The translations under genes were made by a program, and so were the position numbers. A DNA stretch of 32,059 nt. Origin: Parahoeflea alexandrii (GTDB taxonomy: Bacteria > Pseudomonadota > Alphaproteobacteria > Rhizobiales > Rhizobiaceae). This document shows, piece by piece, positions 1 through 32,059 of this stretch. The notes under the pieces were generated by a model. That model ran no database searches. It was given only the letters and a program-made list of their open reading frames with translations, and had not been told where the DNA came from. Location: NCBI RefSeq assembly GCF_027214025.1, contig NZ_JAPWHB010000014.1:1-32059 (forward strand). Reading direction: 5' to 3'. Positions within the stretch are counted from its first letter, which is position 1, and every line of letters starts with the position of its first letter.

Positions 1-77
1 GTCCCATAACCGAGTGCCCTTTCCAGAAAAGGACTCGATTACATGAAGGTTCTTACCCCCACCTTTTTCCCGCTCCC
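1..77. repeat. Left copy of a 77-bp perfect terminal inverted repeat
   Basis: Bases 1-77 are the exact reverse complement of the last 77 bases of the window. The match stops at 77/78. Inside the repeat is an imperfect hairpin, with CGAGT (11-15) pairing ACTCG (33-37) and CCTTT (18-22) pairing AAAGG (28-32). I do not recognise the element that owns this end. It does not resemble the 38-bp GGGG-type ends of the Tn3 element further in. Confidence 0.95.
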
Positions 78-202
78 CCAATTCGGCGCATTCTTACAAT
101 TTAATGCCAAGCGACATGACCAATGCCTGCCATTGCCCATTTTTTTAACGGTTGGCTGAGATTGTCATAGTGGGCTTGTATTGCGTTTTAGCCCAAACTT
201 GA

Positions 203-240
203 GCGCCGGGGTTCTTAAGCCCTTCCCCGGCGCCTTTTTA
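203..240 (+). terminator. Rho-independent terminator
   Basis: A 9-bp perfect GC stem, GCGCCGGGG (203-211) with CCCCGGCGC (225-233), encloses a 13-nt loop and is followed by CTTTTTA. It would end a transcript entering from the left. I recognise no complete gene between the repeat and this terminator (78-202), so the gene it served was probably lost or lies outside. Confidence 0.8.
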
Positions 241-321
241 TAGCCGTAGCCCACGCGGGATTGGTGCGCGTCGACTATTCCTGAGAGGTCAGCCCTGCAG
301 ATCGCGCATCTAACAATGTGG

Positions 322-329
322 TAGCGCTA
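322..329. promoter_or_regulatory. LacI/GalR-type palindromic half-operator candidate
   Basis: The sequence TGGTAGCGCTAAC surrounds a perfect TAGCGCTA palindrome about 65 bases before the DUF1330 start. It resembles operators of LacI/GalR-family repressors, but no such regulator is in the window. An 8-bp palindrome could arise by chance. The rest of 241-393 shows nothing else I can name. Confidence 0.25.
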
Positions 330-393
330 ACTGCTGTTGATGCCTCCCGCCAAAGCTGCGTACATTGAAGTCGAATGATAATGGGAGAAAACA

Positions 394-687
394 ATGGCCA
401 AAGCCTATTGGGTAACGACCTACCGCCAGATCAACGACCCCGATAAATTGGCCGCTTATGCCAAGCTGGCGGGACCCGCTATCAGTGCTGGCGGCGGTCG
501 GTTTCTAGCACGAGGCATGCCCGCCAAGGTCTATGAAGCAGGGTTGCAGCAGCGCACTGTCATCGTTGAGTTCGACAGCGTGGCTGCGGCGCTTGCGACC
601 CATGACAGCCCTACCTACCAGAAGGCGATGGATACGCTCGGCGATGCGGTGGAACGCGATATTCGTATCGTTGAAGGCGCGGAATAG
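394..687 (+). CDS. DUF1330 domain protein
   Basis: This 97-residue protein has the usual length of the DUF1330 family, small cytoplasmic proteins of the dimeric alpha/beta-barrel (ferredoxin-like) fold. The N-terminal AYWVTTYRQINDPDKLAAY stretch, the central GGRFLARG loop and the VIVEFDS strand are typical of the family. The biochemical role of DUF1330 proteins is not established. The ATG at 394 is preceded by a GGGAG ribosome binding site 6-7 bases upstream. The gene stands alone behind a terminator and is not obviously linked to the catabolic operons to the right. The family call is firm and no function is claimed. Confidence 0.85.
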   Translation: MAKAYWVTTYRQINDPDKLAAYAKLAGPAISAGGGRFLARGMPAKVYEAGLQQRTVIVEFDSVAAALATHDSPTYQKAMDTLGDAVERDIRIVEGAE

Positions 688-973
688 GCGGCGGTTCCTG
701 ATCGGCGATCTTCTTCGTCGACTTTGACTGATCCACTCCTAGAGTGCTCTGACTCCGACGCTTCGAACCCCCACCCGAGCAATGTTTGAATGACCGTAAC
801 GCGGTCAAAGTGACCAGAACATCGGTCTTGGTCGACGGCAAAAAAGGGCGGGAAGCGGCCTTTTGGTGCCATGCCCACCAAGGACTGAAATACTACTTCA
901 AAGAAGAACGATTCGCTCAGCGGCTTTAGGGAGGTTTCTGATCAGAACTTTCCACGCTTCGTCTTCTTGCGGA
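688..973. other. Intergenic stretch without recognisable gene
   Basis: About 290 bases between the DUF1330 stop and the end of the minus-strand secreted protein gene. A plus-strand frame without an ATG ends at the TAG near 930 and could encode about 40-58 residues (near its end KYYFKEERFAQRL), but I recognise nothing in it. Overlapping minus-strand frames also match no family I know. It may be relic sequence. Confidence 0.4.
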
Positions 974-1264
974 TCAAAGACTGGCAGTTTCAGTTCTTTC
1001 CAGGCAGGCACCCGGGTAATAGGGCCAGTAGGCAGCATCGCAGGAATTGACGGGCTCGACGTTGGAGGACACCAGGCGAACCTTTCGCGCAATCGGATGT
1101 GCGACCACGCTGTCGCCACGCAGGCTGATGTTTTCGTCTACAGTTGATGCGGACGCGGAGGTCAGGCTGATGGCAAGCGGGTAATGCATTCCACCTGCGT
1201 CGGCGGCAATAGATGCCGCGCCCAAAGCGAAGACAGATGCGGATATGAGAACAATTTTTTTCAT
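974..1264 (-). CDS. Small secreted protein with a two-cysteine WPYYP core
   Basis: The product is 96 residues from the ATG at 1264, which has a GAGG-like site upstream. A longer reading from 1282 would place six residues before the signal peptide and is less likely. Residues 1-22 (lysine pair, then a hydrophobic core ending in Ala-Asp-Ala) form a Sec signal peptide, so the protein is probably periplasmic or exported. The C-terminal part carries Cys-Asp-Ala-Ala-Tyr-Trp-Pro-Tyr-Tyr-Pro-Gly-Ala-Cys, which could form a disulphide. Short exported proteins with this core are, as I recall, common in Rhizobiales and have no known role. Its upstream region runs straight into the left end of the Tn3-family element. 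Confidence 0.6.
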   Translation of the reverse strand: MKKIVLISASVFALGAASIAADAGGMHYPLAISLTSASASTVDENISLRGDSVVAHPIARKVRLVSSNVEPVNSCDAAYWPYYPGACLERTETASL

Positions 1265-1444: not shown

Positions 1445-1482
1445 GGGGTCCGAACAAGAGCAGTGCGAAATCGTACGCTAAG
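1445..1482. repeat. Left inverted repeat of the Tn3-family element
   Basis: The repeat is 38 bp, starting GGGGTC and ending TACGCTAAG, and is oriented into the element. It lies just beyond the tnpA stop codon. Confidence 0.9.
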
Positions 1483-1501
1483 GGCGAACGAAGCGGGAAC
1501 T

Positions 1502-4477
1502 CTAGGCAGCCCGCCGCGGCCCAGCTGGGAGACGGAGTGACCTGAAGCCTTCCGGGAGGTGCTGCTCGCTATCCCAAGTGTAAATGCCTGTCAGATTGAT
1601 GTGCTCCCAGCTCAACGGCGAGATATGCTTGAGCAGGTGATCCGGAATCTCGCGACGCATGTTGCGTAAGTGAGTAACGGCTCGTTCGATATAGACCGTG
1701 TTCCAGTGGACAATCGCACTGACGACGAGGTTCAGACCGGAGGCGCGGAAAGCCTGGCTTTCGAACGATCGGTCGCGGATTTCACCACGCTCGTGGAAGA
1801 AAATGGCGCGCTTCAGCTTATGTGCCGCCTCGCCCTTGTTGAGGCCGGCCTGGCAACGCCGGCGTAGCGCTGGACTTGAGTACCATTCAATCATGAACAG
1901 CGATCGTTCGATCCGGCCAAGTTCCCGTAGCGCCTTTGCGAGCTGGCTTTCCTTCGGTGATGCTGACAGCTTCTTCAAGATGGTGGAAGGCACTACGGAT
2001 CGCGTTGTGATCGACGCCGCCAGATGAAGCAGATCATCCCAATGGTCGAGGATCAGGGTGGCATTGATCGGCGCCCCGATGTGGTTCGACAGCGCGGGAT
2101 ATGCATCGCTTTTCTCGAATGTGTGGAATTTCCGATCTTTGAGATTGCGCAGCCGAGGCGCGAAGCGTTTGCCGATCAAGGCGAAAAGTCCGAAGACATG
2201 GTCGCTTGCACCGCCCGTATCGGTGAAGTGTTCCTGGATGTCGAGGATCGTGTCCTGATCGAACAGCCCGTCGAGCACATAGGCTGCCTCGCTTTCGGTC
2301 GGGCTGATCGGCAAGATGCTGAAGTAGCCATATTGATCTGACAAATGGCTATAGAATTTCGAGCCCGGTTCGCTGCCGTAATGCAGATTGATATCGCCGC
2401 GCTTCGCCGCTCTATCGCTCGCGCGAAAGAACTGCCCGTCGGATGACGCGGTCGTTCCATTACCCCAAAGTCGGGCATGCGGGTGACAAGTGTGCGCATC
2501 GGTGATGCACGCTTGCGCCGCGCGATAGGTCTCCGACCGGGCGTGGAACGAGCGCATCCAGCCGATCTGGTGAGCACTGATACCTTTGGACGCGCTAGCC
2601 ATCCGCTTCGGCCCCAGGTTGGTCGCATCTGCCAGAACGCCCGCCAGCATGGCCGAGACATTCCTCGGGTTGTCACCCGTGCGAACGTGCGTGAAGCAAT
2701 CCGCAAAGCCGGTCCAATCGTGCACTTCCCTCAACAGGTCGGGAACTTCAACCATTGGATACATATCGCTGATCTCTGCCTTCAATTCCTCGGCTGTAGC
2801 GGGAACCTCGCCGGCGACTGGAGTGACGATCAAGGTCCCGGCTTCAAGCCGAACACCTTCGAGCTTTCCGGATCGTGCTCTGTGCGCCAGACGCTTCAGG
2901 TTGAAGTCGAGCATCTGCCGCGCTTCGGCGAGCCAAGCCGCTCCGTCACCTTGGACGCCCAATCCGAGCCGATCCTCCTCCTTCATCGTGGTGAATGTTG
3001 ACCGCGGCATCAGATGCTCGTCGATCGGCCGGAAGGATCGGCTGCCATCGACCCAAACGTCCGCAGATCTAAGCCGGTCCCGCAAAGCCGCGAGCGTTGC
3101 AATCTCATAGAGACGGCGATCGGGCTTCCCCTGCCCGAGGATTAGCCTTCGATCAGCTTGGCTAAGGTGGGTGATTGGGATGCGCTCCGGAAGCGCCCGA
3201 CGCTTTTCCAGGTAGAGCCGTCTCAGCAACGCAATTGCCGCAAGAAGCGGATCGTGGCGGCGCGCTGAGCGGAACGTGAACGCCTGCAGGAACGCACCAA
3301 CATACTTGTTGACGATCGCATATTGTTCGACCGCCAAGGTCAATGGCGACGCCTCGTTGTCCTCGACCATCGACTCAAGCTCAGGCTTCATCCGGAGCAG
3401 CCGGTGCCATCCAACTTCCTGATCAAGAACCTCCAATGCGTTCCGGCCATAATCGTTCGCGGACTGCAGGGCTGTGATCGTGTCGAGGAACATGCGCAAT
3501 GCCTTGGCGGTATCCGGCCTGCAGTCCATGTGTCGCTGCTTCTTGCGGCTATTGGCTTTTGAGAACAGCCTACCCATCAGCTTGATGAACATCGACACCG
3601 CGTCGTCGGTGAGCTTCTGGCCGAGCTTGATGGCCTGCGCCAGGATCAAAGCGTGCCGGCGACTCGCATTGAAGTCGTTGGCCAGCCATGCCGGCGTGGC
3701 GTTGCCCTCGCGGATCATCTGGTCCCACCGTCCCGATGATATGCGCGACTGCAATCTCGGATCGATTTTTAGCTTGCGCAGGAAACCAATCCGTTCGGTC
3801 AGCCCGACCAGGTTCGACGCACCCGGTGCTTCTGGCGCCGACCGCAGCCAATGAAAGCGCGTCTGGCCGATAGCCGGGTCAACCTCCAATAGCTTGTCCA
3901 ATGATTGAAGCGTATCGAGTGGGATGTCTTCAATCAGAGTTCTCTCCGCCCGACGGCGAGCTATAGCGCGGCCGGCAAGGCCGATCCGTTCGATCGTGTC
4001 GATTGCGGGTAGAAGAGATCCACGTTCATGAAATGTGGTGACAATGGAGCTGGCTATCGCAGCACCGTCGTCGGACATCGTGGCCGATTGAATCGCGGCC
4101 AATAGCGCGGCTCGACGATCTTGCGCCGTCGCGCTTCTCGTATTCAGATACACCATGAGGCGCGCCGTGTGATCGCGACGGGTTTCTTCGCGGCGTGCAT
4201 AAAGCGCAAATGCTTCTGGGGCGGCGCCGATTTGGTCAGCAACATGTCGAAGCATGGCACGGGGCGGGGTCTCTTCTGCTCCCAGCACTCGGCCAGGATA
4301 TCGCATCAGACATAGCTGCACGGCAAAACCAAGCCGATTATGCTTACGCCTCCGTAGCTCAATCTCCAAAAGATCGGCCGGTGACAACGAATAGTGCCGG
4401 ATCAGACTTTCCTCGTCGGCTGGTATGTCAAAAATCTTCCGTCGATCATGAACCTTGAGAAGCTTCCGTTTTGCCAT
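1502..4477 (-). CDS. tnpA: Tn3-family transposase TnpA
   Basis: At 991 residues the protein has the full length expected for Tn3-family transposases, which perform replicative transposition by recognising the 38-bp ends. The N-terminal third, starting [20 protein letters not shown], matches the DUF4158 region. The C-terminal part is the DDE catalytic domain. The likely catalytic residues are D680 in TTASSDGQ, D753 in [12 protein letters not shown] and E883 in NKGEA. Their spacings of 73 and 130 are close to Tn3 itself. The C-terminal [12 protein letters not shown] block is also diagnostic. The frame is intact with no internal stop, so the enzyme could be active. The ATG at 4477 lies about 145 bases inside the right repeat. 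Confidence 0.95.
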
Positions 4478-4621
4478 CGCCCAACCCCCACATGACCAAT
4501 CTGCCCAGAGCGTTGTCGAGTCGAGCGGATGAAGAAACCAAAACTAGTGCCTAACGGTGCCAATCCACAGAGATCGGAGGCCGCACATCCGAGATCAGAG
4601 ACGGTTCATATTCCGTTCGAC

Positions 4622-4659
4622 CTTAGCGTACGATTTCGCACTGCTCTTGTTCTGACCCC
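4622..4659. repeat. Right inverted repeat of the Tn3-family element
   Basis: Read on the minus strand this is 38 bp starting GGGGTCAGAACAAGAGC and ending ACGCTAAG, matching the left end except at position 7. The stretch between it and tnpA (4478-4621) should hold the tnpA promoter, but I see no clear motif. Confidence 0.9.
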
Positions 4660-18811: not shown

Positions 18812-20071
18812 ATGCCTGACCCCTCCGTACGCAAGGTGACCATCATCGGCGCCGGCATCGTTGGGCTTGCCACAGCACTCACCCTTCAGTCCGAAGGGCA
18901 CAACGTGACGCTGATCGATCCGCGTCCGCCGGGCAGCGCCACCTCCTTCGGCAACGCCGGTGCAATCGTCGCCGGCGGCGTGGTGCCCACCGCCACGCCG
19001 GGCCTGTGGAAGCGGGTGCCGAAGATGCTTCTCGACCCGATGAGCCCGCTGAAGATCCGCTGGTCCTACCTGCCGCAACTGACGCCATGGCTGATCCGCT
19101 TCCTCGATTCCGGCCGCGAAGCCAAGGCGCTGAAAATAAGCCGCGAGATCTCGACGCTGACATCCCTCTGTCTCGAAGCCCATCATCGGCTCGCCGATCT
19201 GGCCGGCGCGCGACACATCCTCAAGCCTGTCGGCTGGCTCAAGGTCTATCGCGACGAGGACGCCTATGCCGGCACCGCCTATGATCGGGGCCTGATGGAT
19301 CTGGCGGGGGTCAACTACCAGCATCTGAACGTCGACGAACTGCGCCAGCTCGAACCCGGAATCTCACGTGACTACACCGTCGGGCTGTTTCAGCCCGACG
19401 CGGCGTTTGTGTCCACGCCCTACGCACTGTCGCAGGCGCTGTACAAGGCTTTTGCTGAACGCGGCGGTGTCTATCATCAAGAGGCGTTGCGGCGCTTCGA
19501 CTTCGGCGACAACGGACAGCCCAGGGCGGCGGTCACCACCCACGCCATCCATCCGCTCGATACCCTGGTGATTGCGGCCGGCGCCTGGTCGAAGGAACTG
19601 GCCCGCCAGCTCGGTTCAAAAGTCTCGCTCGACACCGAGCGCGGCTATCATTTGAGCTTCGCCCGCACCGCGGCCGGACCGGTACTCAACCGTCCCACGG
19701 TGTTCGGCGGTCCGCAATTCGTGCTGAGCCCGATGGCCGATGGCATCAGGTTGAACGCCGGGGTGGAACTGGCGGGGCTTGACGCCGAGCCGGATTTCAC
19801 CCGCATCAAGGCGCTGGTGCCGATGGCGCAGAAATGCCTGCCCGGCCTTTCGGGTGAGATCACGCGGGAATGGATGGGATACCGGCCCTCGACGCCCGAC
19901 TCGAAGCCTGTCATCGGCCGGTCGCCGGTGCACGCCAATGTGTTCTATGCCTTCGGCCACGGGCATATGGGGCTCGGACTCTCGGCGATCACGGCACGGC
20001 TGGTCGCCGACCTGGTGGCCGGGCGCGATAGTCGAATTCCGCTGGAGCCGTTTGCAGTCGACCGCTTCTAG
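18812..20071 (+). CDS. DadA-like D-amino-acid dehydrogenase
   Basis: The 419-residue DAO-family flavoprotein carries the FAD-binding motif KVTIIGAGIVGLATALTLQSEG at residues about 7-28, then LIDPRPPGSATSFGNAGAIV. This SFGNAG loop and the WLIRFLDSGR segment are typical of DadA-type small-subunit D-amino-acid dehydrogenases and their relatives acting on hydroxyproline. The C-terminal WMGYRPSTPDSKPVIGRSP and FGHGHMGLGLSAITARLVADL blocks are intact. It would oxidise a D-amino acid to a 2-oxo acid. The ATG at 18812 has AGGA 9 bases upstream. ATGs at 18659 and 18791 are in frame but lack a good site. The gene ends head-on against the ABC operon. Confidence 0.88.
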   Translation: MPDPSVRKVTIIGAGIVGLATALTLQSEGHNVTLIDPRPPGSATSFGNAGAIVAGGVVPTATPGLWKRVPKMLLDPMSPLKIRWSYLPQLTPWLIRFLDSGREAKALKISREISTLTSLCLEAHHRLADLAGARHILKPVGWLKVYRDEDAYAGTAYDRGLMDLAGVNYQHLNVDELRQLEPGISRDYTVGLFQPDAAFVSTPYALSQALYKAFAERGGVYHQEALRRFDFGDNGQPRAAVTTHAIHPLDTLVIAAGAWSKELARQLGSKVSLDTERGYHLSFARTAAGPVLNRPTVFGGPQFVLSPMADGIRLNAGVELAGLDAEPDFTRIKALVPMAQKCLPGLSGEITREWMGYRPSTPDSKPVIGRSPVHANVFYAFGHGHMGLGLSAITARLVADLVAGRDSRIPLEPFAVDRF

Positions 20072-21076
20072 CTGGTGGCACCTGCTGATTCAGCGACCGG
20101 CAGTCCGCCGCGTCCGTCGGCATAGAGATGGCAGGCCACCGAGCGCTCCGCATCGACATCGATCCAGTCCGGATAGACCTTGCGGCAGACATCCATCGCA
20201 TGCGGGCAGCGCGGGTGGAAATGGCAGCCGCTCGGCGGGTTGACGGCGGACGGAACTTCACCCTCGATGCGCTCGAAGGATTTGCGAGCCGCCGGGTCGG
20301 GAACCGGCGAGGCATCGCGCAGCATCACCGTATAGGGATGCAGCGGCTCGTCGAAGATTTTCGGAACCGGCCCCTTCTCGATGATCTTGCCCAGATACAT
20401 CACCGCCATCATCTGGCAGAAGTAGCGGACCACCCCGAGATCGTGAGAAATGAAGATGAAGCTGAGATTGAGCCGCTGCTGCAGGTCGCGCAGCAGGGTG
20501 AGGATCTGCGACTGGATTGAGACATCGAGAGCGGAGACCGGCTCGTCGGCGATGATCAGTTCCGGATTCAGCGTCAATGCGCGGGCAATACCCAGCCGCT
20601 GACGCTGGCCGCCGCTGAATTCGTGCGGAAAGCGGATTCCCGCATCGCGTGGCAGACCGACTTCTTCCAGCAGGTCGCAGATCCGTTCGTTGGCTTCCTT
20701 CTTGCTCATCAGTCCATGCACCAGCAGCGGCTCTGCCAGCGCGTTGCCCACCCGCATGCGCGGATTGAGCGAGGAGAACGGATCCTGAAAGATGATCTGT
20801 GCGCGCTTGCGGAGTGCGCGCATTTCCCTGGCATCGGCCTCGACAATTTCCCTGCCGTCAAACTCTATGGATCCTTCATCCGGTTCCAACAGCCGCAGGA
20901 TGGTCCGGCCGGCAGTGGATTTGCCGCAACCGGATTCGCCCACCAGCGCGAAAGCCTGGCCGCGCTGCACCTCGAAGGAAATGCCGTCCAGCGCGCGCAC
21001 GATCACGGTTTCCGGATTGGGAAAACCCCGGCGGACCTTGAAGAATTTCTTCAAATTCTTGACGCGGAGCAGCGGT

Positions 21077-21090
<14 letters not shown>
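20068..21090 (-). CDS. Dipeptide/opine ABC transporter ATP-binding protein (DppF/OppF-like)
   Basis: The 340-residue ATPase has Walker [10 protein letters not shown], signature FSGGQRQRLGIARAL, Walker B PELIIADEP and an H-loop in FISHDLGVV. The C-terminal oligopeptide-type extension (CHFHPRCPHAMDVC, four-cysteine pattern) identifies the Dpp/Opp/nickel subfamily. It powers import together with the second ATPase and the two permeases upstream in the operon. The start overlaps the previous gene by 14 bases (ATG 21090, alternative ATG 21084). Its stop TAG shares a CTAG with the stop of the convergent dadA-like gene. Confidence 0.93.
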
Positions 21091-22104
<1,014 letters not shown>

Positions 22105-22105
<1 letters not shown>

Positions 22106-22989
22106 CAGCTGTCGCTCCTTGTCTTCGGGTCGATGGCGTCGCGCAGGCCATCACCAAGCAGGTTGAGCGAAAACACCACCAGCAAGATCGCCATGCTGGG
22201 GCAGACCGAGAGCCAAACATTGTCGAGGATGTTCTCGAAGCCTTCGCGGATCATGCCGCCCCAGCTGGCTGTCGGCGGCTTGACGCCCAGTCCGATGAAG
22301 CTCAGCGATGCCTCTACCCGGATTGCCGTGGCGAGCCACAGCGAGCCCATGACGAGGATTTCCGAAAACACATTGGGGAAAATGTGCTTGAGGATGATGC
22401 GCGGATGGCCGAAGCCGAGTGCCCGGCAGGCCTCGACATAATCCCGCTCCTTGATCGCGATGGTCGGCGCTCGCGCCGTGCGGGCAAAGGGCGGTATCGC
22501 CGTCAGCGCGATGGCAATGATGAGGTTCTCCATGCTCGGCCCGAGCATGGCGACGACGATAAGGCCAAGGATCAGCGCCGGAAATGCCAGGAGCACATCC
22601 ATTACCTGCATCAACAGCAAGTCGATCATGCCGCCAAAATAGCCGGCAATGATACCGATGATGGAGCCGACGATCATCGCGGCTCCAATTGCCGTCAGGC
22701 TGATAACCAATGATACCCGGGCGCCATAGAGCAGGCGCGAGAGAATGTCCCTTCCATAGGCGTCGGTGCCGAACCAGTATTCGGCGCTCGGCCCCTTGAG
22801 CCGGGCGATGATGTGCTGCTGCAGCGGATCATGCGGCGCCAGCAGCGGTGCCGCGATGGCGACAACGATGATCAGAAGGAAGATCACAGCGCCTACGCCC
22901 GTGAGCTTGTTGTTGCGGAAAGCCTTCTGCAGCTGGTCGATAAAGGGATGGCGCGAAGGCGCCGGCAGGACGTCGACAGGCGCGGTCAT
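22105..22989 (-). CDS. ABC transporter permease (DppC-like)
   Basis: The 294-residue permease has an N-terminal hydrophobic helix (residues about 31-52) and five further segments. The diagnostic DppC/OppC loop is [24 protein letters not shown]. The EAA loop that contacts the ATPases is in [24 protein letters not shown]. The protein forms the inner-membrane pore together with the DppB-like partner. Its ATG overlaps that partner's stop by four bases (ATGA). The frame is intact. Confidence 0.93.
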
Positions 22990-23927
22990 TGGTATTTCAC
23001 CCTTGGGTCTATGAGGCCATAGGTCAGATCGGTCAGCAGGTTCACGATGACGATGACGAAGGTGTAGATGATCATCAGCCCCTGCAGCAGCGTGTAGTCA
23101 CGCTGGCCCAGGGCGCCGACAATCAGCTTGCCGAGGCCGGGTCTGTTAAAGACGATTTCGGTAAGCACCGAATTTCCGATCAGGATGCCGAGATAGAGCC
23201 CGACCACCGTGACCACCGGAATGAGTGCATTGCGCATGCCATGGCGCCATATCACAACCCGTTCCGGCACGCCCTTGGCGCGCGCGGTGCGGATATAGTC
23301 TTCGCCCAGCGACCCCAGCATCGAGGAACGGGTGACGCGGGTGATGTATGCGGCCATGATCAGGCCGAGATTGAGCGCCGGCAGCGCCAGGCTTTCGGCC
23401 CATTCGCCGAAGGTCGCGCGATCACCGCCACTGATGACAGGCAGCCAGCGAAGCTGGATCGAGAACACGATCAGCATCAGGATTGCCGAGACGAAAGCCG
23501 GAAACGAAAGGCCCAGCAGAGAGCCCACCCTCGTGACGTAGTCTATCCACTCGTTCCGGTGCAATGCCGACCAGGCGCCGAGCGGAATGCCGATCAGGCC
23601 GCCGATGATCAGCGAGACCACGGTGAGTTCGATTGTGTAGGGCAGCACACGGGCTATTTCGGCCAGCACCGGCTTGCCCGTGACCATGGATTCGCCCCAG
23701 TCTCCGACCAACGCTCCGCCCATGAACTCGACATATTGTTCGAGGATCGGGCGATCGACGCCAAGTCGCTCGCGCATGTTTTGCAGCGCTTCCGCGCTGG
23801 CCTGGTCGCCAAGAATGGTCTGTGCCGGGTCACCCGGCACGATACGCACCAGGACAAATACCACCGTCATCACTGCCAACAGCGTCGGTATGGCAAAGAT
23901 CAGGCGACGGACAACGAATCGAAGCAT
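22986..23927 (-). CDS. ABC transporter permease (DppB-like)
   Basis: The 313-residue permease starts with the N-terminal helix MLRFVVRRLIFAIPTLLAVMTVVF, followed by the conserved RIVPGDPA motif of DppB/OppB proteins and a periplasmic loop. The EAA loop is in YIRTARAKGVPERVVIWRHGMRNALIPV. Six membrane segments are expected. It lies about 105 bases after the binding-protein gene, separated by two hairpins. A very long plus-strand open frame (22989-25628) is the antisense shadow of this gene and the binding protein and is not a gene. Confidence 0.93.
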   Translation of the reverse strand: MLRFVVRRLIFAIPTLLAVMTVVFVLVRIVPGDPAQTILGDQASAEALQNMRERLGVDRPILEQYVEFMGGALVGDWGESMVTGKPVLAEIARVLPYTIELTVVSLIIGGLIGIPLGAWSALHRNEWIDYVTRVGSLLGLSFPAFVSAILMLIVFSIQLRWLPVISGGDRATFGEWAESLALPALNLGLIMAAYITRVTRSSMLGSLGEDYIRTARAKGVPERVVIWRHGMRNALIPVVTVVGLYLGILIGNSVLTEIVFNRPGLGKLIVGALGQRDYTLLQGLMIIYTFVIVIVNLLTDLTYGLIDPRVKYQ

Positions 23928-23946
23928 AGCGGTACCTTCCTGCCGG

Positions 23947-24021
23947 TTGCCCCGCCCTCAGCGGGAGGGGCAATTTGCGACATCAATCGGAATGCCCGGG
24001 GCGGCATAGTGGCCGCCCCGG
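23947..24021 (-). promoter_or_regulatory. Two hairpins between the binding-protein and permease genes
   Basis: CCGGGGCGGC (23996-24005) pairs perfectly with GCCGCCCCGG (24012-24021). TTGCCCC (23947-23953) pairs with GGGGCAA (23967-23973), with inner CCC/GGG pairs. Neither has a U-tract on the transcribed minus strand. The place, just after the binding-protein stop, fits the RNA stems that stabilise that part of the message and lower permease expression. Confidence 0.6.
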
Positions 24022-24032
24022 TTCGTCCGATT

Positions 24033-25607
24033 TTACTTGATGAAGTGGGTGTTCTCGGTGACCGGCGGTCCGAGGCTCAGCGAACCGATCAGCTCATACC
24101 CCAGATCCAGGTTGGTCTTGGTCGCCCAGATCTGAAGGTTTTCGTAGATCGGAACACCGCAAACTTCGTTCATGATCTTTTCCTGGGCGGTCTTCCAGAG
24201 CTGCTTCTGCTTCTCCATGTCCTGCTCGACACGAGCTTCCTCGATTTCCTTGTCAGCCACCGCACAGTGCGAGAAGTTGGTGATACCCGTCGGTGTGCCG
24301 ACGGTGCTGGCGGAATGGAAGAATTGCGTCAGGTAGGTGTCGGCAACCGGGAAGCGGGCGGCCGAGTAATGCACGATCTGGCTCAAATCCTTGCGGATCT
24401 GGGCATGGAAAGTTGCATGTTCGACGACTTCCATGTCGAGCATGATGCCGGCTTCGGCAAGCTGGGCCTGGAACACTTCCATGGTGCCGAGCATGCCCGG
24501 CAGCGCCGTGTGGATCACCTTCAGGGTAACGCCATCCGGATAACCGGCTTCGGCGAGCAGTGCCTTGGCGCCGGAAATGTCATGCTTGGGCATAAGGGCG
24601 CTCATGTCGGCGGAACCGAGATACCCCTGCGGCACCACCGACTTGGCGATGCGTGTCACGTCGCGACCCTTGAAATCCATGAACTGCTCACGGTCAACCG
24701 CCATGGCGATCGCCTGACGGACACGGATATCATCAAGCGGCTTGGAGGTGATGTTGAGAGACATCACCGACATTTCCGCCGGCTCCATCACATGCACGAC
24801 GGCACCTTCAATCTGCTTGGTGCGTTCGACCCAGGTCTGGTCCTGCTTGCCGTAGAGCATGTCAAGCTCGCCGGACTGGAAGGCCAGGTCACGCGCGGAA
24901 TCCGACGGTACATACTGATAGCTGATGCCATCAAGCTGCGGCTTGCCACGGAAATAGTCCGGGTTGGCAACCAGCATCAAGCTCTGCTGTGGCTTGTATT
25001 CGCCATACATGAACGGGCCTGTGCCGATCGGGCGCTTCTGGAAGTCTTCGCCCATTTCTTCAGCGGCTTTCATGCAGACGATGTTGCCGCCATGATAATT
25101 GCTCAGCACTCCGAGCAGGCTCGGGATCGGGTTCTTGAGCACGATGTTGACGGTGTAGGGATCGACCGCCTCGACCTTGTCGAAGGCCGCGAAATCGCCG
25201 GCGAAGCTCGAGCGGTTCGGGTCGGCGGCGCGATTGAGCGAATAGACAATGTCAGCCGAAGTCAGTTCGCCATAGCCGTGATGGCACTGCACGCCCTTGC
25301 GCAGGTGGAAGGTCCAGTCGAGGCCGTCCGCGCTGGTTTCCCAGCTCTCGGCCAGATCCGGCTCAACGGATTCGGGCGACGCGGTGCCGGGCTTCAGCCG
25401 AACCAGGCCGTTGAACATCCAACCGAATACCGCCTTGTCGATGGTAGTGGCCGAAAGATGTGGATCGAGACGACCGGCATCCGGTGCGGCGATGCCGACA
25501 TTGAGAATGTTGGTGTCGGGTCCTGCGGAGGCAATATTGGTGGTTCCGGCAAACACTGCCAGTCCCCCTGCGAGCATCAGGCTCGCTGTTATCATTCTGT
25601 GCTTCAT
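24033..25607 (-). CDS. Dipeptide/opine ABC transporter substrate-binding protein (SBP_bac_5)
   Basis: The 524-residue periplasmic protein of the family-5 solute-binding type has a signal peptide of about 28 residues ending NIASA. Family features are LNVGIAAPDAGRLDPH, GLVRLKPGTASPESVEPDLAESWE, WTFHLRKGVQCHHG and DIVYSLNRAADP. Later comes the DIRVRQAIAMAVDREQ block. Members bind di- and oligopeptides, opines, nickel chelates or polyamine-like solutes. GGGAG precedes the ATG at 25607. It is cotranscribed with oxidoreductases rather than peptidases, so an opine or amino-acid derivative is more likely than a plain peptide, which is an inference from context. Confidence 0.93.
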   Translation of the reverse strand: MKHRMITASLMLAGGLAVFAGTTNIASAGPDTNILNVGIAAPDAGRLDPHLSATTIDKAVFGWMFNGLVRLKPGTASPESVEPDLAESWETSADGLDWTFHLRKGVQCHHGYGELTSADIVYSLNRAADPNRSSFAGDFAAFDKVEAVDPYTVNIVLKNPIPSLLGVLSNYHGGNIVCMKAAEEMGEDFQKRPIGTGPFMYGEYKPQQSLMLVANPDYFRGKPQLDGISYQYVPSDSARDLAFQSGELDMLYGKQDQTWVERTKQIEGAVVHVMEPAEMSVMSLNITSKPLDDIRVRQAIAMAVDREQFMDFKGRDVTRIAKSVVPQGYLGSADMSALMPKHDISGAKALLAEAGYPDGVTLKVIHTALPGMLGTMEVFQAQLAEAGIMLDMEVVEHATFHAQIRKDLSQIVHYSAARFPVADTYLTQFFHSASTVGTPTGITNFSHCAVADKEIEEARVEQDMEKQKQLWKTAQEKIMNEVCGVPIYENLQIWATKTNLDLGYELIGSLSLGPPVTENTHFIK

Positions 25608-25824
25608 GTCTGTTCTCCCTTGTTATAGACGTCAGGCCATGACGGCGTCGCAGCCTCTCCCGATGCACCGCCACCCCCGTTCCACTGTCTGTCAGTGTCA
25701 TCGGGCAACCGGCGGAATTCTTGAAGCCTTGTCAGGCGCGACGCTCCGTCGTTGCGGTGCCGCGTATCCTTTGGCTTGATTTCTGTTTTATCCTTCTTTT
25801 CGTTCGTGCCGGTTTCACAACCGG
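25608..25824 (-). promoter_or_regulatory. Spacer with hairpin after the SDR gene
   Basis: The sequence GCCGGTT (25808-25814), a 4-base loop and AACCGGC (25819-25825) form a perfect 7-bp stem touching the SDR stop codon. No U-tract follows on the minus strand. The remaining 190 bases before the binding-protein gene hold no gene and could carry a separate promoter, but I see no convincing hexamers. Confidence 0.35.
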
Positions 25825-26538
25825 CTATAGAGTGTCTTCAAGCCGACAATTGACCAGCATTTCAGCCATTGCGGCAGTGTTAGGCAGTGCGATCGCGGTT
25901 GCAGCCAGCTCTGCCAGGTCCGCGGCGTCGATCATCTCGTCCCGGCTGACCTTTGTCACGTCGGCGGTCAGGTCAGTGGCCACGAAGCCGGGGCACAGGG
26001 CGGTGGCTCGAACTCCGTCTGCCCAACCGATGCGGCGTATCCCGTGTGTTAGCGCCAAAAGCGCGTGCTTGGTCATGCTATAGGCAATGTTATCGTTGCG
26101 CACGCGTTTTCCCGACAGCGAAGCCAGATTGACAACCCGGCCCGAGCCAGACGTCCTAAGATGTGGCAGGCAGGCGCGGGTCAGAAACAGCGGTCCCTTG
26201 ACATTGATGCCCCAGAGAAGGTCGAGCTCGGCCTCATCGCCCTCTTCGATAGAGAAGGTATTGGACGTGCCGGCATTGTTGACCAGCGCGTCGAGCCGTC
26301 CGAACCGGTCGATGGTGGTGGCGAGCCAGTCGGCGTGGCTGCCGCGGTCCGCAGCATCGTAGCGGGCGCAAATGAGCCGCTCGCCGGCCTGAGCTTTCAG
26401 AACCGCCCGCAGTGCGTCCACGTCCCGGGCGCCGGCGCTGACGACATAGCCTTTGGCGTGCAGGGTCTTGGCAATCGCCATGCCGATGCCGCGGCTGGCG
26501 CCGGAAATCATGACAACTCGGCCTTTCGGGTCGATCAA
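25825..26538 (-). CDS. Short-chain dehydrogenase/reductase (classical SDR)
   Basis: The 237-residue NAD(P)-dependent oxidoreductase has cofactor motif SGASRGIG (residues about 12-19), NNAG strand motif in DALVNNAGTS, catalytic Ser in NLASLSGK, and the Tyr-x3-Lys pair in AYSMTKHALLAL. It has the size of single-domain classical SDRs and would oxidise or reduce a hydroxyl/keto group in the cytoplasm. The apparent start is TTG at 26538, with an AGGG/AGG site a few bases upstream. No in-frame ATG is better placed because the next Met lies within the first strand. It follows two DAO flavoproteins in the operon and probably handles a downstream product. Confidence 0.88.
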   Translation of the reverse strand: MIDPKGRVVMISGASRGIGMAIAKTLHAKGYVVSAGARDVDALRAVLKAQAGERLICARYDAADRGSHADWLATTIDRFGRLDALVNNAGTSNTFSIEEGDEAELDLLWGINVKGPLFLTRACLPHLRTSGSGRVVNLASLSGKRVRNDNIAYSMTKHALLALTHGIRRIGWADGVRATALCPGFVATDLTADVTKVSRDEMIDAADLAELAATAIALPNTAAMAEMLVNCRLEDTL

Positions 26539-26579
26539 TTCCTGTCCCTCATCTGTTCACCTCGCCCCTGTCCCGCCGG

Positions 26580-27743
26580 TCATCCGTGCAGGGTTAAAAC
26601 CGCCTCTGTTGTGTTGTTGCCGGCAAACCGGTCGAACCTGAAGGCATCCAGCGCCAGGCGCGGTGTGCGCCCCAATGCCAGGTCGGCCGCCAGCGGCCCC
26701 GTGACCGGACCAATGCCGAAGCCATGGCCGGAAAAGCCAGCGGCAACGATCAGATTTTCATACCCCGGCACATGATCGATCACCGGCAATGCGTCGGGCG
26801 TAAGATCCAGAATCCCGCCCCAGAAACCTTCGATTTCGGCATCGGCGAACGCCGGCAGCACTTCGCTGATCCGGACAATGGTCTCCATCACGCGGCGCAT
26901 CAGCGGTCGCGCCACCGGCCTGCCGTCGACAAGTTCGATCTCGCCGGTCCAGTCCTGCGCGCCACTGGTCACCCGCAGCCGGCCCGAGATTTCCTGTCGC
27001 GCCGCCATGTCGGCGTTGGCCACACCCAGCACCGGCTTGAGCTGGAATGCTTGCGGCGTGGTGCGCAGCACCGTGACAATCGGACGGCGCAGCGGGATGG
27101 AATGGCCCAGTGGTTCAAGGATCGAATTTGCATGAATGCCTGGGGCCGCCAGCACCGCACCGGCTGAAATCGTGCGTTTATCGGTACGCACGCCGGTGAT
27201 GCGCCCGCCCTCGCTGATCAGGTTGCAGATACTTTCTCCCATCGAGGCGCGGGCGCCCAAACACGTGGCTTTCTCGAGATAGGCCGTGACAGTTGCCACC
27301 GGATCGGCGTGGCCATCGGTTGGACACCACGAGGCGGCACGCACCAGCGGCGCCAGCGCTGGTGCAATCTCAAGAATGGCATCACGGTCGGTGAGAAGTG
27401 TCAGGTCGAGGCCGGCTGCGCGCTGGTTTTCCACCAGTATTCGCAAGGTTTCGACTTCAGCGGCATTGCGCGCCAGCCGCAGATTGCCATCCTGGCGATA
27501 GCCGGTCTCGGCGCCAAGCCTGACGGCAAGCTCCGGCCATTGCGCCACTGCAGCCAGAGCGAGTGGAAGTTCCGATGGATGGCGTCCAGATTGACGCACT
27601 CCGGCAAGGGTCCAGCCCGAGGCCATGGCAGCCGGGCCGTAACGATCAACGATCTCGACAGTGGCGCCGGCTTCCACCAGCTCCAGCGCCGCCGCCACTC
27701 CGGTAATGCCGGCTCCGATGACGAGGACATCGGGCGCGCTCAT
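26580..27743 (-). CDS. DAO-family FAD-dependent oxidoreductase
   Basis: The 387-residue flavoprotein begins DVLVIGAGITGVAAALELVEAG (FAD-binding, residues about 5-26), followed by AAMASGWTLAGVRQSGRHPSE in the substrate loop. C-terminal blocks FWGGILDLTPDALPVIDHVP and AAGFSGHGFGIGPVTGPLAADL are typical of glycine/sarcosine/D-amino-acid oxidase relatives. It lacks a signal peptide. Its ATG overlaps the stop of the upstream flavoprotein (ATGA). The two adjacent enzymes share C-terminal wording (PVID, SGHGFGIGP) but are otherwise quite different, so they may be paralogues acting on related steps or two halves of one enzyme system. Confidence 0.88.
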   Translation of the reverse strand: MSAPDVLVIGAGITGVAAALELVEAGATVEIVDRYGPAAMASGWTLAGVRQSGRHPSELPLALAAVAQWPELAVRLGAETGYRQDGNLRLARNAAEVETLRILVENQRAAGLDLTLLTDRDAILEIAPALAPLVRAASWCPTDGHADPVATVTAYLEKATCLGARASMGESICNLISEGGRITGVRTDKRTISAGAVLAAPGIHANSILEPLGHSIPLRRPIVTVLRTTPQAFQLKPVLGVANADMAARQEISGRLRVTSGAQDWTGEIELVDGRPVARPLMRRVMETIVRISEVLPAFADAEIEGFWGGILDLTPDALPVIDHVPGYENLIVAAGFSGHGFGIGPVTGPLAADLALGRTPRLALDAFRFDRFAGNNTTEAVLTLHG

Positions 27744-29035
27744 GCCGCCGCCTTCCGGTTGAACCGCGCCAGAGCAAAATTGGAGGCGTCGACCAGCATG
27801 TTTTCACCAAGCACCCGTTGTGCCGCCATCAGTCCGACGCCCGGGCCGATGCCGAAGCCATGGCCGGACAGGCCGGTGGCGAGCACCAGACCTTGCCAGC
27901 CCGGCGGGCTATCGATTACCGGCAGCTCGTCGGGCATGACGTCGATCAGGCCGCCCCAGGTCTCGGCGACAGTCACGTCCGCAAGCTGCGGATGGAGAAC
28001 CTTCGCATCGCTCAGCACGCGAGCGAGCAGTTTCTTATCGGGCTCGGGGTCCATCACACGAACGCGCTCGAAAGGGCTGGTTTCGTCGGCTTTCCAGCGG
28101 GCTCTGCCCAGCGGACCGAAGAACTCCGAACCGGCACGGATTTTCATGATTCGCCAGCGCTCCCTGATGATCGGAAGGAAGGCGGCAAAGTGGTGGAAGG
28201 CAGCCGGAATCAACTGAAATTCTGCCGCGCCGCTGCGTGCGACGGTGTAGCCGCCATCCTGGCGGCGGCGCAACGAGGCGCGCTCTGAACCAACTGTGCC
28301 GGAGATGAATTCCGGGGCGACCGAGGTCCTCATGACCGAGGATTTGACCGCCAGCTGCGGCAGGTCGAGATCAAGATTTTCCAGGAAAGTCCGTGACCAG
28401 ACGCCACCCGCGAGGATGACGGATTCGCAGGCGATCTCGCCGCGCTCAGTGACCACGCTGCGGACATTGCCGGCTTCCCGCTCAATCAGCCGGACGGCAC
28501 AATTGTCCAGGATAGTTGCCCCCAACTCCGCCGCCCGCCGCGCCATGGCAGGCACTGCCAGACGGGGTTCGGCGGTGGCATCCGACGGGGTGTGAAGCGC
28601 TCCCTTGAACCGCTTTCCGGTTCGTCCGAGCAAGGCGTCGGTTTCCGATGGCGACAACAGCGTGGAATCGAGCTGGAAATGCTTTGTCTTGTCGAGCCAG
28701 TCCTGATGCCGGGCGATGTCGGCATCGGTCTCGCAGAGATAAGTGGTGCCGCGCACGCCGTAACCGATGTCACTGTCGAGCTCGGATACGATGCGCGACC
28801 ACAGCCGGGCGCTTTCGATCATCAGTGGCAATTCGCGCTCGTCGCGGCTGGCCTTGCGGATCCAGCCCCAGTTGCGCGATGACTGCTCGCCAGCAATTTG
28901 GCCTTTTTCGCACAACACGACGGGCACGCCGCGCTCGGCCAGGAACAGCGCTGCCGTCACTCCGACAATGCCACCGCCAATTACGACGACACTCGTCTTG
29001 AGAGGGAAGCTCTGATCAGCGCTTCTGGTGTGCAC
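27740..29035 (-). CDS. DAO-family FAD-dependent oxidoreductase, first gene of the ABC operon
   Basis: The protein has 431 residues from the GTG at 29035, which has AAGGAG 6 bases upstream. The frame stays open to a TTG at 29053, but that would put the Shine-Dalgarno inside the gene. FAD-binding motif SVVVIGGGIVGVTAALFLAERG is followed by GEQSSRNWGWIRK, a loop characteristic of one alphaproteobacterial DAO group. The C-terminus has ETWGGLIDVMPDELPVID and TGLSGHGFGIGPGVGLMAAQ. It probably oxidises an N-substituted amino acid. As first gene of a long operon divergent from a LysR regulator, it is the likeliest first enzyme after uptake. Confidence 0.87.
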   Translation of the reverse strand: MHTRSADQSFPLKTSVVVIGGGIVGVTAALFLAERGVPVVLCEKGQIAGEQSSRNWGWIRKASRDERELPLMIESARLWSRIVSELDSDIGYGVRGTTYLCETDADIARHQDWLDKTKHFQLDSTLLSPSETDALLGRTGKRFKGALHTPSDATAEPRLAVPAMARRAAELGATILDNCAVRLIEREAGNVRSVVTERGEIACESVILAGGVWSRTFLENLDLDLPQLAVKSSVMRTSVAPEFISGTVGSERASLRRRQDGGYTVARSGAAEFQLIPAAFHHFAAFLPIIRERWRIMKIRAGSEFFGPLGRARWKADETSPFERVRVMDPEPDKKLLARVLSDAKVLHPQLADVTVAETWGGLIDVMPDELPVIDSPPGWQGLVLATGLSGHGFGIGPGVGLMAAQRVLGENMLVDASNFALARFNRKAAA

Positions 29036-29048
29036 ATAAGTCTCCTTG

Positions 29049-29098
29049 GGCAATCAAGTGCTGATTGCCAGTCAACGGCGACGGTTGCTATAAGGCAA
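29049..29098. promoter_or_regulatory. Palindromes between the LysR gene and the ABC/oxidoreductase operon
   Basis: GGCAATCA (29049-29056) and TGATTGCC (29062-29069) form a perfect 8-bp inverted repeat with a 5-base spacer, just upstream of the operon's GTG start. A second element, TTGC-N6-GCAA (29085-29098), contains the T-N11-A pattern of LysR boxes. Both lie in the 105 bases between divergent starts, where a LysR activator would bind. The first repeat covers the operon leader and may act as a second operator. Confidence 0.6.
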
Positions 29099-29140
29099 AT
29101 AAATTTTTGTTCCGCGATTATGTGAAAAGGTTATACTCTC

Positions 29141-30034
29141 ATGTTGAGTCAACGCTCCCTGGAGGCATTCCGCGCCGTCATGCGCACCGGAACGGTGTCT
29201 GGCGGGGCCGAGGAGTTGCGGATCTCCCAGCCGGCCGCCAGCCGGCTGATCCGGGAACTGGAGGAAAAAACCGGACTCAGACTGTTCACCCGCCATGGCA
29301 GCCGGGTAGTCGCAACCCACGAAGCGCATGAGTTCTGGATCGAAGTGGAGCGCAGCTTTACCGGGCTCGGACACATTGAACGCGCCGCGCAACAGATCAG
29401 GAGCGGTCAGCGGGCAACCCTCACGATTGCGGCTGCCCCCGCACTTGCTTACACAGCCCTCCCCGAAGCCGTGGCGCGTCTGCAGGCGCGACGGCCGGGC
29501 TTCAGGGCGGAGTTTCTGTCGATGACGACACTGCCGGTGGTTCGACAGGTGGCGCTCAGACAATGCCAGATCGGCTTCGGGGTGCTGACCCAGCACAAGC
29601 TTGAGATCGACGTCGTCAAGACCGGTTCGCTGGCCTATCGCTTCATTGCCGCAGCCGGCCACCCGCTCCAGGAAAAGGACGCGATCTGTGCCGAAGATTT
29701 GGCAGGTCTCGATTTTGTCGGCTTCGTCGATTCGACCATGACCGGCCGCTTGTTCGACCAGCGCTTTGCCCGAATGCGGAAACCGCCCTTGGTCAAGCTG
29801 CGCAGCTATCTGTCCAATGTCATATCCGCGCTCGTCATCCGTAGCCTCGGTGTCGGCATCGTTGATCCGTTTACTGCGGAAGTTCATGTCCAGCTCGGCG
29901 GTATCTCCCGGCCGTGGCTGGGCGAGGAACGCTTTGACTATTCGGTCATCAAGCCGCTCGGCGAGAAACTTAGCTCTGAATGCGAGGGACTGGTCACTGT
30001 GTTCGAGGACTTGGCTGACCTGCACCGGGGCTAA
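29141..30034 (+). CDS. LysR-family transcriptional regulator (OccR/NocR-like)
   Basis: The 297-residue protein has an N-terminal winged helix-turn-helix (residues about 3-60: LEAFRAVMRTGTVSGGAEEL, then RISQPAASRLIRELEEKTGLRLF) and the two-lobed periplasmic-binding-like effector domain. Its style recalls the regulators of octopine and nopaline catabolism, which sense the opine and activate a divergent ABC-uptake and oxidase operon. The gene layout here is the same. An AAAGG site lies about 10 bases before the ATG at 29141. It probably controls the operon at 20068-29035. The inducer is not known. Confidence 0.9.
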   Translation: MLSQRSLEAFRAVMRTGTVSGGAEELRISQPAASRLIRELEEKTGLRLFTRHGSRVVATHEAHEFWIEVERSFTGLGHIERAAQQIRSGQRATLTIAAAPALAYTALPEAVARLQARRPGFRAEFLSMTTLPVVRQVALRQCQIGFGVLTQHKLEIDVVKTGSLAYRFIAAAGHPLQEKDAICAEDLAGLDFVGFVDSTMTGRLFDQRFARMRKPPLVKLRSYLSNVISALVIRSLGVGIVDPFTAEVHVQLGGISRPWLGEERFDYSVIKPLGEKLSSECEGLVTVFEDLADLHRG

Positions 30035-30110
30035 TTGAGCGATCGGACTAAAAGGGCTGCGACGGCACGGGCCCTTCTGTATTCCACCCTCCAACCGAGA
30101 GACTTGCGAC

Positions 30111-30421: not shown

Positions 30422-30655
30422 TGAGCCTCCCCCTTTGAAGTGGTCCGCCCCTATGTTTAGGAAGACGGAGGACCGGAGATGGCGATTAAGAGACCGAAGC
30501 CCGAAGAGATTGTCGTGAAGTTGCGGCAGGTTGAAGTTCTGATGGGGCAAGGCATGCCCCGTATTGACACGATCCGTCGGATTGGCGTGACTGAACAAAC
30601 CTATTATCGCTGGGAGAATAATACGGCGGAATGGACACAGAACAACTCAAGGAAC
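30422..30655 (+). mobile_element. Left-end remnant of an IS3-family element
   Basis: The sequence begins TGAGCCTCCCCCTTTGAAGT, which looks like an IS3-group left end. It includes the leader and orfA start, then is cut by the left end of a second, complete IS3-family element at 30656. Confidence 0.6.
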
Positions 30656-30658
30656 TGA
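30479..30658 (+). pseudogene. IS3-family OrfA (helix-turn-helix) fragment
   Basis: The 59-residue frame starts MAIKRPKPEEIVVKLRQVEV and has the OrfA helix-turn-helix ending IRRIGVTEQTYYRW. Family members continue with a YGGMDTEQLKELN-like stretch. Here that wording is found, but in a shifted frame, so one base was lost or gained near 30615, and the annotated frame ends in unrelated residues. The rest of orfA and all of orfB are missing. GGAG lies before the ATG. The fragment is not functional. Confidence 0.7.
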
Positions 30659-30711
30659 ATAGCCCCTAGATTTCTGGACACCTTCTTCCCTAGATTTGAG
30701 GCAAGGAGGCC

Positions 30712-30987
30712 ATGATGGGGTCTGGCAATTTCAGTGATGATTTTAAGCGCGATGCAGTCGCACAGATTACCGAGCGGGGTTATCCCGTTGCGGAGGTTTC
30801 CAAACGGCTCGGCGTGAGCCCTCACTCGCTCTATGCTTGGAAGAAGAAGTTCTCGAAGCCTTCGGGATCGGGCGATGCGGATCAATCAGCTGAGATCCGG
30901 CGACTGAAGAAGGAACTGGCGCGCGTCACCGAGGAGCGCGACATCTTAAGAAAAGCCACCGCGTATTTCGCCAAGGATGCAAAGTGA
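30712..30987 (+). CDS. IS3-family OrfA
   Basis: The 91-residue protein has a helix-turn-helix (FKRDAVAQITERGYPVAEVSKRLGVSPHSLYAWKKKF) and a C-terminal leucine-zipper-like helix (EIRRLKKELARVTEERDILRKA). It binds the element ends and provides the N-terminal part of the OrfAB fusion. AAGGAGG precedes two ATGs (30712 and 30715). The second has the better spacing. OrfB overlaps in another frame, and an A-rich TTAAGAAAAG near the end is the likely slippage site for the fusion. Confidence 0.9.
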   Translation: MMGSGNFSDDFKRDAVAQITERGYPVAEVSKRLGVSPHSLYAWKKKFSKPSGSGDADQSAEIRRLKKELARVTEERDILRKATAYFAKDAK

Positions 30988-31844
30988 GATACGCGTTCAT
31001 TGCCGAGCATCGCCAGCAGTTCACGGTTCGGGCGATGTGCCGTTGCCTGCGTATGCGACCCAGCGGTTTCTACGCCTGGCTGAAGAACCCGCTGAGCAAG
31101 AGGGCGTTGGAGGATGCACGTCAGACGGAGCTCATCAGCGATGCCTGGAAGGAAAGCGGCAGGGTCTATGGCTACCGCAAGCTTCATGACGACCTTCTCG
31201 ATCAGGGGGAGACCAGTTGTGCCAACCGCATTGCTCGCCTCGCGAGGCTTGCAGGGATCAAGGCGCAGATCGGCTACAAGCGACGGCCCGGCTCCTATGG
31301 CGGCAGGCCCTCGATCATGGTCGACAATACCTTGGCTCGCCAGTTCGATGTGGAGGCCCCGGACAGGGCGTGGGTGACCGACATCACCTACATCAGGACC
31401 CAGGAAGGCTTTGCCTATCTGGCCGTGGTGATCGATCTGTTCTCCCGTCGAGTCATCGGCTGGTCAATGCAGAGCCGCCAGACAACCGACGTCGTGTTGC
31501 AGGCGTTGCTCATGGCTGTGTGGCGTCGAAAGCCCAAGAGCAAGGTCCTGATCCATTCCGATCAGGGCTCCCAGTTCACCAGCATGGACTGGGTGGCATT
31601 TCTCAAGCATCACAATCTTGAGCATTCGATGAGCCGACGAGGGAATTGCCACGACAACGCTGTGGCAGAAAGCTTCTTCAATCTGCTCAAGCGTGAACGG
31701 ATACGGCGCAGAACCTATCGAACACGCCAAGAGGCAAGGCAGGACGTGTTCGACTACATCGAAATGTTCTATAACCCAAAACGGAAGCACGTCAGGAACG
31801 GGATGCTGTCACCCGTCGAGTTCGAACGGCAGCAGGAAATGTAA
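30984..31844 (+). CDS. IS3-family transposase OrfB
   Basis: The 286-residue catalytic part begins RYAFIAEHRQQFTVRAMCRCL. It has the rve integrase core with a DDE triad: Asp in WVTDITYIRTQEG, Asp in VLIHSDQGSQFTS and Glu in NCHDNAVAESFFNLLKRE. The C-terminal YNPKRKHVRNGMLSPVEFE is diagnostic of the family. It probably acts as an OrfAB fusion made by ribosomal frameshifting. The GTG at 30984 overlaps the OrfA stop. The frame is intact. Confidence 0.93.
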   Translation: MRYAFIAEHRQQFTVRAMCRCLRMRPSGFYAWLKNPLSKRALEDARQTELISDAWKESGRVYGYRKLHDDLLDQGETSCANRIARLARLAGIKAQIGYKRRPGSYGGRPSIMVDNTLARQFDVEAPDRAWVTDITYIRTQEGFAYLAVVIDLFSRRVIGWSMQSRQTTDVVLQALLMAVWRRKPKSKVLIHSDQGSQFTSMDWVAFLKHHNLEHSMSRRGNCHDNAVAESFFNLLKRERIRRRTYRTRQEARQDVFDYIEMFYNPKRKHVRNGMLSPVEFERQQEM

Positions 31845-31877
31845 CCCGAGGGTGTCCACGAAACTCGGGGCTATTCA

Positions 31878-31982
31878 CTGATCGAGTTCGGTGTTGCCAA
31901 CCACCGGCAACCGAAACCAGTTCATAGGGCCGGGAACGAAGTTCCTCGCGCAGATCTTCAATCAGTAGATCAATGCTGCAAT
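31878..31982 (-). pseudogene. ScpB-like (SMC-ScpAB segregation protein) internal fragment
   Basis: Read on the minus strand, the frame gives CSIDLLIEDLREELRSRP followed by YELVSVAGGWQHRTR, which matches the N-terminal winged-helix region of ScpB. ScpB is the partner of ScpA and SMC in chromosome condensation, and some alphaproteobacterial plasmids carry extra copies. The match starts just inside the 77-bp repeat and stops at the IS3 right end, so both ends are lost. The 77-bp repeat itself carries an in-frame stop and does not look like ScpB. This suggests the repeat marks the end of an element that landed in or next to scpB. Confidence 0.65.
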
Positions 31983-32059
31983 GGGAGCGGGAAAAAGGTG
32001 GGGGTAAGAACCTTCATGTAATCGAGTCCTTTTCTGGAAAGGGCACTCGGTTATGGGAC
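31983..32059. repeat. Right copy of the 77-bp perfect terminal inverted repeat
   Basis: This is the exact reverse complement of bases 1-77, ending GGCACTCGGTTATGGGAC. The identity stops at 31983 (GGGAGCGGG). Inside it lies scpB-like sequence, while the left copy is followed by unrelated sequence. Confidence 0.95.

Follow-up and report, generated by a model that had tools for sequence, protein, structure and literature searches.

Terminal Repeat of the Window and Adjacent Features

The window analyzed in this study, meaning the whole stretch of 32,059 nucleotides from Parahoeflea alexandrii, corresponds to the entire contig C5 (positions 1–32059) of a draft assembly consisting of 68 contigs and 5,543,836 bases. 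It harbors, between positions 15502 and 30029, a gene cluster comprising a peptide-type transporter and a number of FAD oxidoreductases of the DAO type, and it is bounded by a 77-bp inverted repeat. This repeat, which most likely represents the end of an insertion sequence (IS) of the ISKra4 family cut by the contig ends, is the subject of the present analysis. The features at the two ends of the window are the following:

1..77, minus strand: putative left (transposase 5′) end of an ISKra4-family IS, truncated at the contig edge; terminus at 77, predicted continuation beyond base 1; 96% identity to the copies in genomes G007 and G002; 77 nt shared with the other contig end
57..77, minus strand: putative IS terminal inverted repeat of ~21 bp, GGGAGCGGGAAAAAGGTGGGG read into the IS; 20 of 21 bases as in the right-end terminus on contigs C3 and C7
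78..116, plus strand: apparent TniA/TniB-type transposon terminus adjoining the left IS copy; 39 of 39 bases identical on contig C12 of genome G013
31887..31982, minus strand: scpB-like gene fragment ending at the right IS copy; 96 nt, 88.5% identity to an open reading frame (ORF) with a ScpB domain near the end of C3
31983..32059, plus strand: putative left end of the second IS copy, inverted and truncated at the contig edge; terminus at 31983; same 77-mer

Bases 1–77 are the exact reverse complement of bases 31983–32059, with no mismatch, and the identity breaks off at base 78. An inverted repeat of this kind is far beyond chance, and its description in the initial annotation as a perfect repeat bounding the segment was confirmed. 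The imperfect hairpin noted there was likewise recovered by folding the 77-mer as single-stranded DNA (−8.7 kcal/mol, z = −2.87, with 1 of 200 shuffled sequences being as stable). The readable contigs of this genome contain the 77-mer at two sites only, the two ends of C5. None of the other repeats of at least 25 nt reported for the window involves it, so that it is not an end of the internal IS6-, IS3-, or Tn3-type elements, in agreement with the initial annotation, which had found it unlike the ends of the ISs in the window. An exact scan of the genome-contig set with the 77-mer gave no match, nor did a search of phage records.

Overlaps between the Contig Ends of the Assembly

For the comparison of contig ends, 51 of the 68 contigs (228–2,709 bases) read N, and their 102 ends were left out. 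The readable set comprised 17 contigs with 34 ends and 561 end pairs, for which the ends were read inward and the leading shared bases were counted. Between zero and four leading bases were in common in 534 of these pairs, and the other 27 pairs shared 77 to 79 bases (77 in 23 pairs, 78 in two, and 79 in two), with no pair at values from 5 to 76. The overlapping pairs fall into nine groups covering 24 of the 34 ends, and the start and end of C5 constitute one of these groups. Furthermore, the end of contig C1 overlaps its own start by exactly 77 bases, so that, with these two self-overlapping ends, 77-nt overlaps were found at 26 of the 34 readable ends.

A de Bruijn graph assembly is recognized by one fixed overlap length across all contigs, and this was found both in the distribution of the end pairs and in the self-overlap of C1. 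The single fixed overlap length is characteristic of a de Bruijn graph built with k = 77, a value that is among those usually applied by SPAdes. Since 77 is the overlap length of the assembly, the fact that the repeat is exactly 77 bases long and perfect is biologically uninformative. Its perfection had been taken to imply either recent duplication or functional selection; neither is needed, because contig ends meeting at one vertex of the graph carry the same k-mer by construction, and this shared k-mer suffices as an explanation.

The comparison also provided information on other parts of the genome. Contig C1 (94,071 bases) begins and ends with the same 77 bases and thus probably represents a whole circular replicon of ~93,994 bases. 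Two groups have five members each, one consisting of C10 start, C58 end, C68 start, C6 end, and C8 start, and the other of C21 start, C50 start, C58 start, C67 start, and C8 end. They possibly represent both sides of one five-copy repeat.

Identity of the Repeat

The 77 bp were matched by 16 plasmid records from Sinorhizobium, Rhizobium, Mesorhizobium, Neorhizobium, and Nitratireductor, with identities of 79–88%. Every match ended at query base 75–77, indicating one common terminus, and two of the 16 lie under an annotated ISKra4 transposase. Among 61 genomes, namely the genome of origin and 60 relatives, six matched the 77-mer, two of them (G007 and G002, both of the same genus) with 96% identity over all 77 bases. 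These two carry intact elements of 1,448 bp with the 77 bp as the left end, and a related element of 1,447 bp was present in G017. The transposase of the G007 element (452 aa) matched the NCBIfam ISKra4 model NF033572 with 313.9 bits (1.9e-93; cut-off 205), the transposases of two relatives being far above this cut-off. The transposase of the more distant copy L006 gave no match in Pfam.

The right end of the IS was located on two other contigs, namely where C3 ends and C7 begins; these two contig ends have a 77-mer of their own in common, and the IS sequence there shows 96% identity over 76 bases to the copies in G007 and G002. The left terminus in the window and the right terminus on C3 and C7 agree at 20 of 21 bases, the terminus being CTCCC when read outward. 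Terminal inverted repeats of 18–39 bp with a conserved terminal C are given for the ISKra4 family in PMC3942029, and the termini found in this genome correspond to that description. According to these sequence comparisons, the 77-mer most likely forms the left end of an ordinary IS from the ISKra4 family, inside which C5 breaks off on either side.

Proposed Arrangement and Alternative Explanations

With a probability of approximately 0.95, the window is a short-read contig assembled with k = 77, both ends of which lie in one collapsed ISKra4-type repeat representing two mirrored IS copies. The contig would stem from short reads assembled in a de Bruijn graph of this k, probably by a SPAdes-like assembler. 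Both of its ends would stop in a single collapsed repeat formed by the left end of an IS of ~1.45 kb, and the assembler would keep the last common k-mer on each contig reaching the branching vertex. As both ends of C5 keep the k-mer of one branch vertex, the same 77 bases would appear there in inverted orientation. The two IS copies would be oppositely oriented beside the segment, with their transposases facing away from C5, and the probable order would be C3-[IS]-C5-[IS inverted]-C7. All four junctions are explained by two copies whose left ends lie on C5 and whose right ends lie on C3 and C7; we infer here how these junctions are joined, that there are two copies, and that an IS body follows beyond the contig ends. 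In such an arrangement, inversion of the 32-kb segment by homologous recombination between the IS copies would be possible in principle.

Among the explanations offered in the initial annotation, copies of one element in opposite orientation are thus favored by the data, in the form of an ISKra4 left end inside which the contig stops on both sides, and true termini of a large catabolic element with an unknown transposase are not supported. The annotation had also named a finding that would speak against such an element, namely that the repeat continues into two ordinary inverted IS copies. Judging from the junctions, this continuation is probably present.

Several observations weigh against the proposed arrangement. 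Eight of the 34 readable ends show no overlap with any readable end, as is expected if their partners lie on contigs reading N, and two of these eight (C4 start and C50 end) are low-complexity runs of C. The IS body was not seen in the readable sequence of this genome, in which 51 contigs read N, and a search of the genome with an ISKra4 transposase returned a single match on C66, which was weak (35.4 bits, 45% identity) and interrupted by two internal stops. Moreover, a target duplication of 3–12 bp was absent in all four left-right flank pairings, and likewise in the outer pair C3/C7 and the inner pair, the pairing itself following from the proposed order. Hence, the flanks have been paired incorrectly here, or they underwent a later rearrangement. 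For the ISKra4 family, PMC3942029 reports direct target repeats with a length of 8 or 9 bp. Among the relatives' copies with both IS ends, a duplication of at least 4 bp was detected in 1 of 11 (9 bp in L005; three of the 11 have internal gaps), and one 3-bp and one 2-bp flank match were also noted, corresponding to chance level.

The missing duplication also bears on the idea of a composite transposon, in which the two inverted ISs and the 32 kb between them would have moved together, with the outer (right) ends serving as substrate for the ISKra4 transposase. Oppositely oriented IS ends flanking a catabolic gene set and matching right ends on C3 and C7 would fit such a unit, but the target duplication to be expected outside both IS copies was found neither at the inferred C3/C7 flanks nor in any other pairing. 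Relatives of the same genus carry part of the segment with edges located elsewhere: G009 holds the region 18829–30029 and G007 the region 15502–28604 (with a gap at ~17375–18665), with 81–87% identity, and no ISKra4 terminus (up to three substitutions) was found in the 60 kb (G009) and 19.9 kb (G007) around the shared cluster. The G007 stretch stops on the right at its contig end; the other edges differ from the window ends, and the ISKra4-type IS of G007 lies on a different contig. For the 8.0–13.7 kb part of the window (DctP, DctM, carbon-nitrogen hydrolase, and DAO domains), short matches only were obtained in 16 of 25 other genomes, the best being 314 bases at 68%. The junctions point to separate events as well, consisting of the apparent TniA/TniB transposon end, the scpB fragment, and, at the C7 junction, an ORF matching the RraA family from profile position 48 onward, its start missing. 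A composite transposon is accordingly improbable, and nothing shows the 32-kb segment moving as a unit.

Far less probable still is a large catabolic mobile element with 77-bp terminal inverted repeats of its own and an unrecognized transposase. The perfect inverted repeat at both window ends invites this interpretation, but 77 is the overlap length throughout the readable assembly, and other genomes contain the 1.45-kb IS, whose end the repeat forms, in intact form and with its own transposase. Just as minute is the chance that a linear replicon ends here in terminal inverted repeats or a hairpin telomere; the inverted repeat at both ends and the weak hairpin would be in line with it, but other replicons carry this sequence internally as an IS end, and the same 77-nt overlaps recur at 26 of the 34 readable contig ends, including the two of C1. 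The 77-bp repeat is thus not to be read as the termini of a new 32-kb mobile element; it stems from an ordinary IS belonging to a family already known, and its exact length is a product of the assembly.

IS Left Ends beside Apparent TniA/TniB-Type Transposon Termini

The sequence 78–116, identical over its whole length in G013, is preceded there by genes that encode Mu-transpos_C/rve and TniB domains. A third ORF between those genes and the end had no Pfam match, and a tniQ label for it would be a guess. Contig C66 of the genome of origin matches this stretch with 92% identity over 38 bp, and the matches of L122–L126 to 78–116 all stop at window base 116, as expected of a transposon terminus.

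The flanks of the IS were compiled from 21 loci (plasmids and the 61 genomes), 16 further loci (394 family genomes), and four stretches taken from the genome of origin. Ends aligned over less than 40 nt or starting more than 4 nt from the terminus were dropped, as were flanks shorter than 40 nt. Flanks were regarded as distinct by their first 30 nt, so that related insertions may count separately, resulting in 30 distinct left and 17 distinct right flanks (including C3 and C7). The motif, the 17-mer TTTAATGCCAAGCGACA with at most five mismatches within 60 nt of the IS, was derived from the window's left flank, which was hence excluded; the other 29 left flanks include that of the window's right-hand IS copy, a miss.

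The motif was detected in 8 of these 29 left flanks (9 of 30 with the window's own), always in forward orientation and starting 11–34 nt from the IS (L117, L119, L143, L149, L151, L155, L156, and L006), and in none of the 17 right flanks. It was likewise absent from the flanks of all 47 control left ends of IS6-type (18) and IS3-type (29) elements, which were taken from a different genome set (151 relatives) than the IS loci, and it occurred in 0.9% of 20,000 random 60-nt stretches, a background that includes some of the tested loci. The enrichment corresponds to p = 0.0002 against the controls and p = 0.019 against the right flanks (Fisher test). Left ends of this IS group are thus repeatedly situated just inside an apparent transposon terminus of the TniA/TniB type. 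An earlier, differently written 21-mer (up to six mismatches) was found in the left flanks of 3 out of 21 loci (L117, L119, and L151). TniA/TniB genes beside the motif were confirmed by Pfam at one locus, L123.

These results allow the tentative suggestion, to which we assign somewhat less than an even chance, that the ISKra4 group targets TniA/TniB-type transposon termini as landing pads, with the left end toward the terminus. Against targeting stand the 21 of 29 other left flanks from which the motif is absent, and similar repeats in reversed orientation, with seven mismatches and therefore scored as misses, at L005 (together with L003) and L161. A strict orientation rule is disfavored by the G007 copy, in which the inner portion of the terminus lies at the right end of the IS instead (27 bp, 96%). 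The right flanks and the spacing between IS and motif vary among the loci, favoring separate insertions without proving them.

The alternative of the IS travelling as a fixed passenger with a single TniA/TniB lineage was also considered and is disfavored by the same variation. A limited search of the open-licence literature returned no report of ISKra4 elements at Tni ends. On a Sinorhizobium medicae plasmid (L003, 1649–4995), two mirrored copies of a TniA-type gene flank a remnant of the IS left end.

Other Elements inside the Window

Two further elements were observed in the window. The region 1445–4659 represents a Tn3-family unit with 46-bp terminal repeats (96%) and one long plausible gene, tnpA (1502–4477, DDE_Tnp_Tn3, 5.1e-141); no 5-bp target duplication was present in the flanks inspected. 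An IS6-type element with 17-bp inverted ends, including one mismatch, occupies the region 13708–14535. One of its sides matches oxidoreductase and RidA-family genes, and the other a trimethylamine methyltransferase gene on Leisingera plasmids.

Implications and Comparison with Known Systems

With the explanation given above, a false lead is removed: a perfect terminal repeat at contig ends having the length of the assembler's k should not be taken for the ends of a mobile element. Comparing all contig ends of one assembly for a single fixed overlap length represents a simple and general test. The link between ISKra4 elements and TniA/TniB-type transposon ends merits a separate study, and, if the targeting is true, it would be a further example of transposons of one family serving as target sites for those of another.

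IS4321/IS5075 and similar IS110-type elements sit in the terminal repeats of Tn21-like transposons. They resemble the present case in that an IS lands in the ends of other transposons, but they belong to another transposase family, and the motif described here starts 11–34 nt from the IS instead of at one fixed base.

Regarding the assembly, SPAdes leaves overlaps at contig ends, as stated in PMC5481147, and the exact overlaps of one length across the readable assembly, including the self-closing contig, are alike; no difference was seen from this presumed assembler. The element itself resembles the ISKra4 family (p-MULT 4, Mutator-like DDE transposases), as described in PMC3942029, in its ~21-bp terminal repeat, in the ~1.45-kb size of the element in relatives, and in the NF033572 scores of the transposases of two relatives. 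It differs from that description in that no target duplication was found at the presumed flanks. Some ISKra4-group elements insert in an oriented manner upstream of sigma-A promoters (PMC3942029), whereas the left ends studied here recur beside apparent TniA/TniB-type termini; this pattern may be a form of the oriented insertion upstream of sigma-A promoters, or something else.

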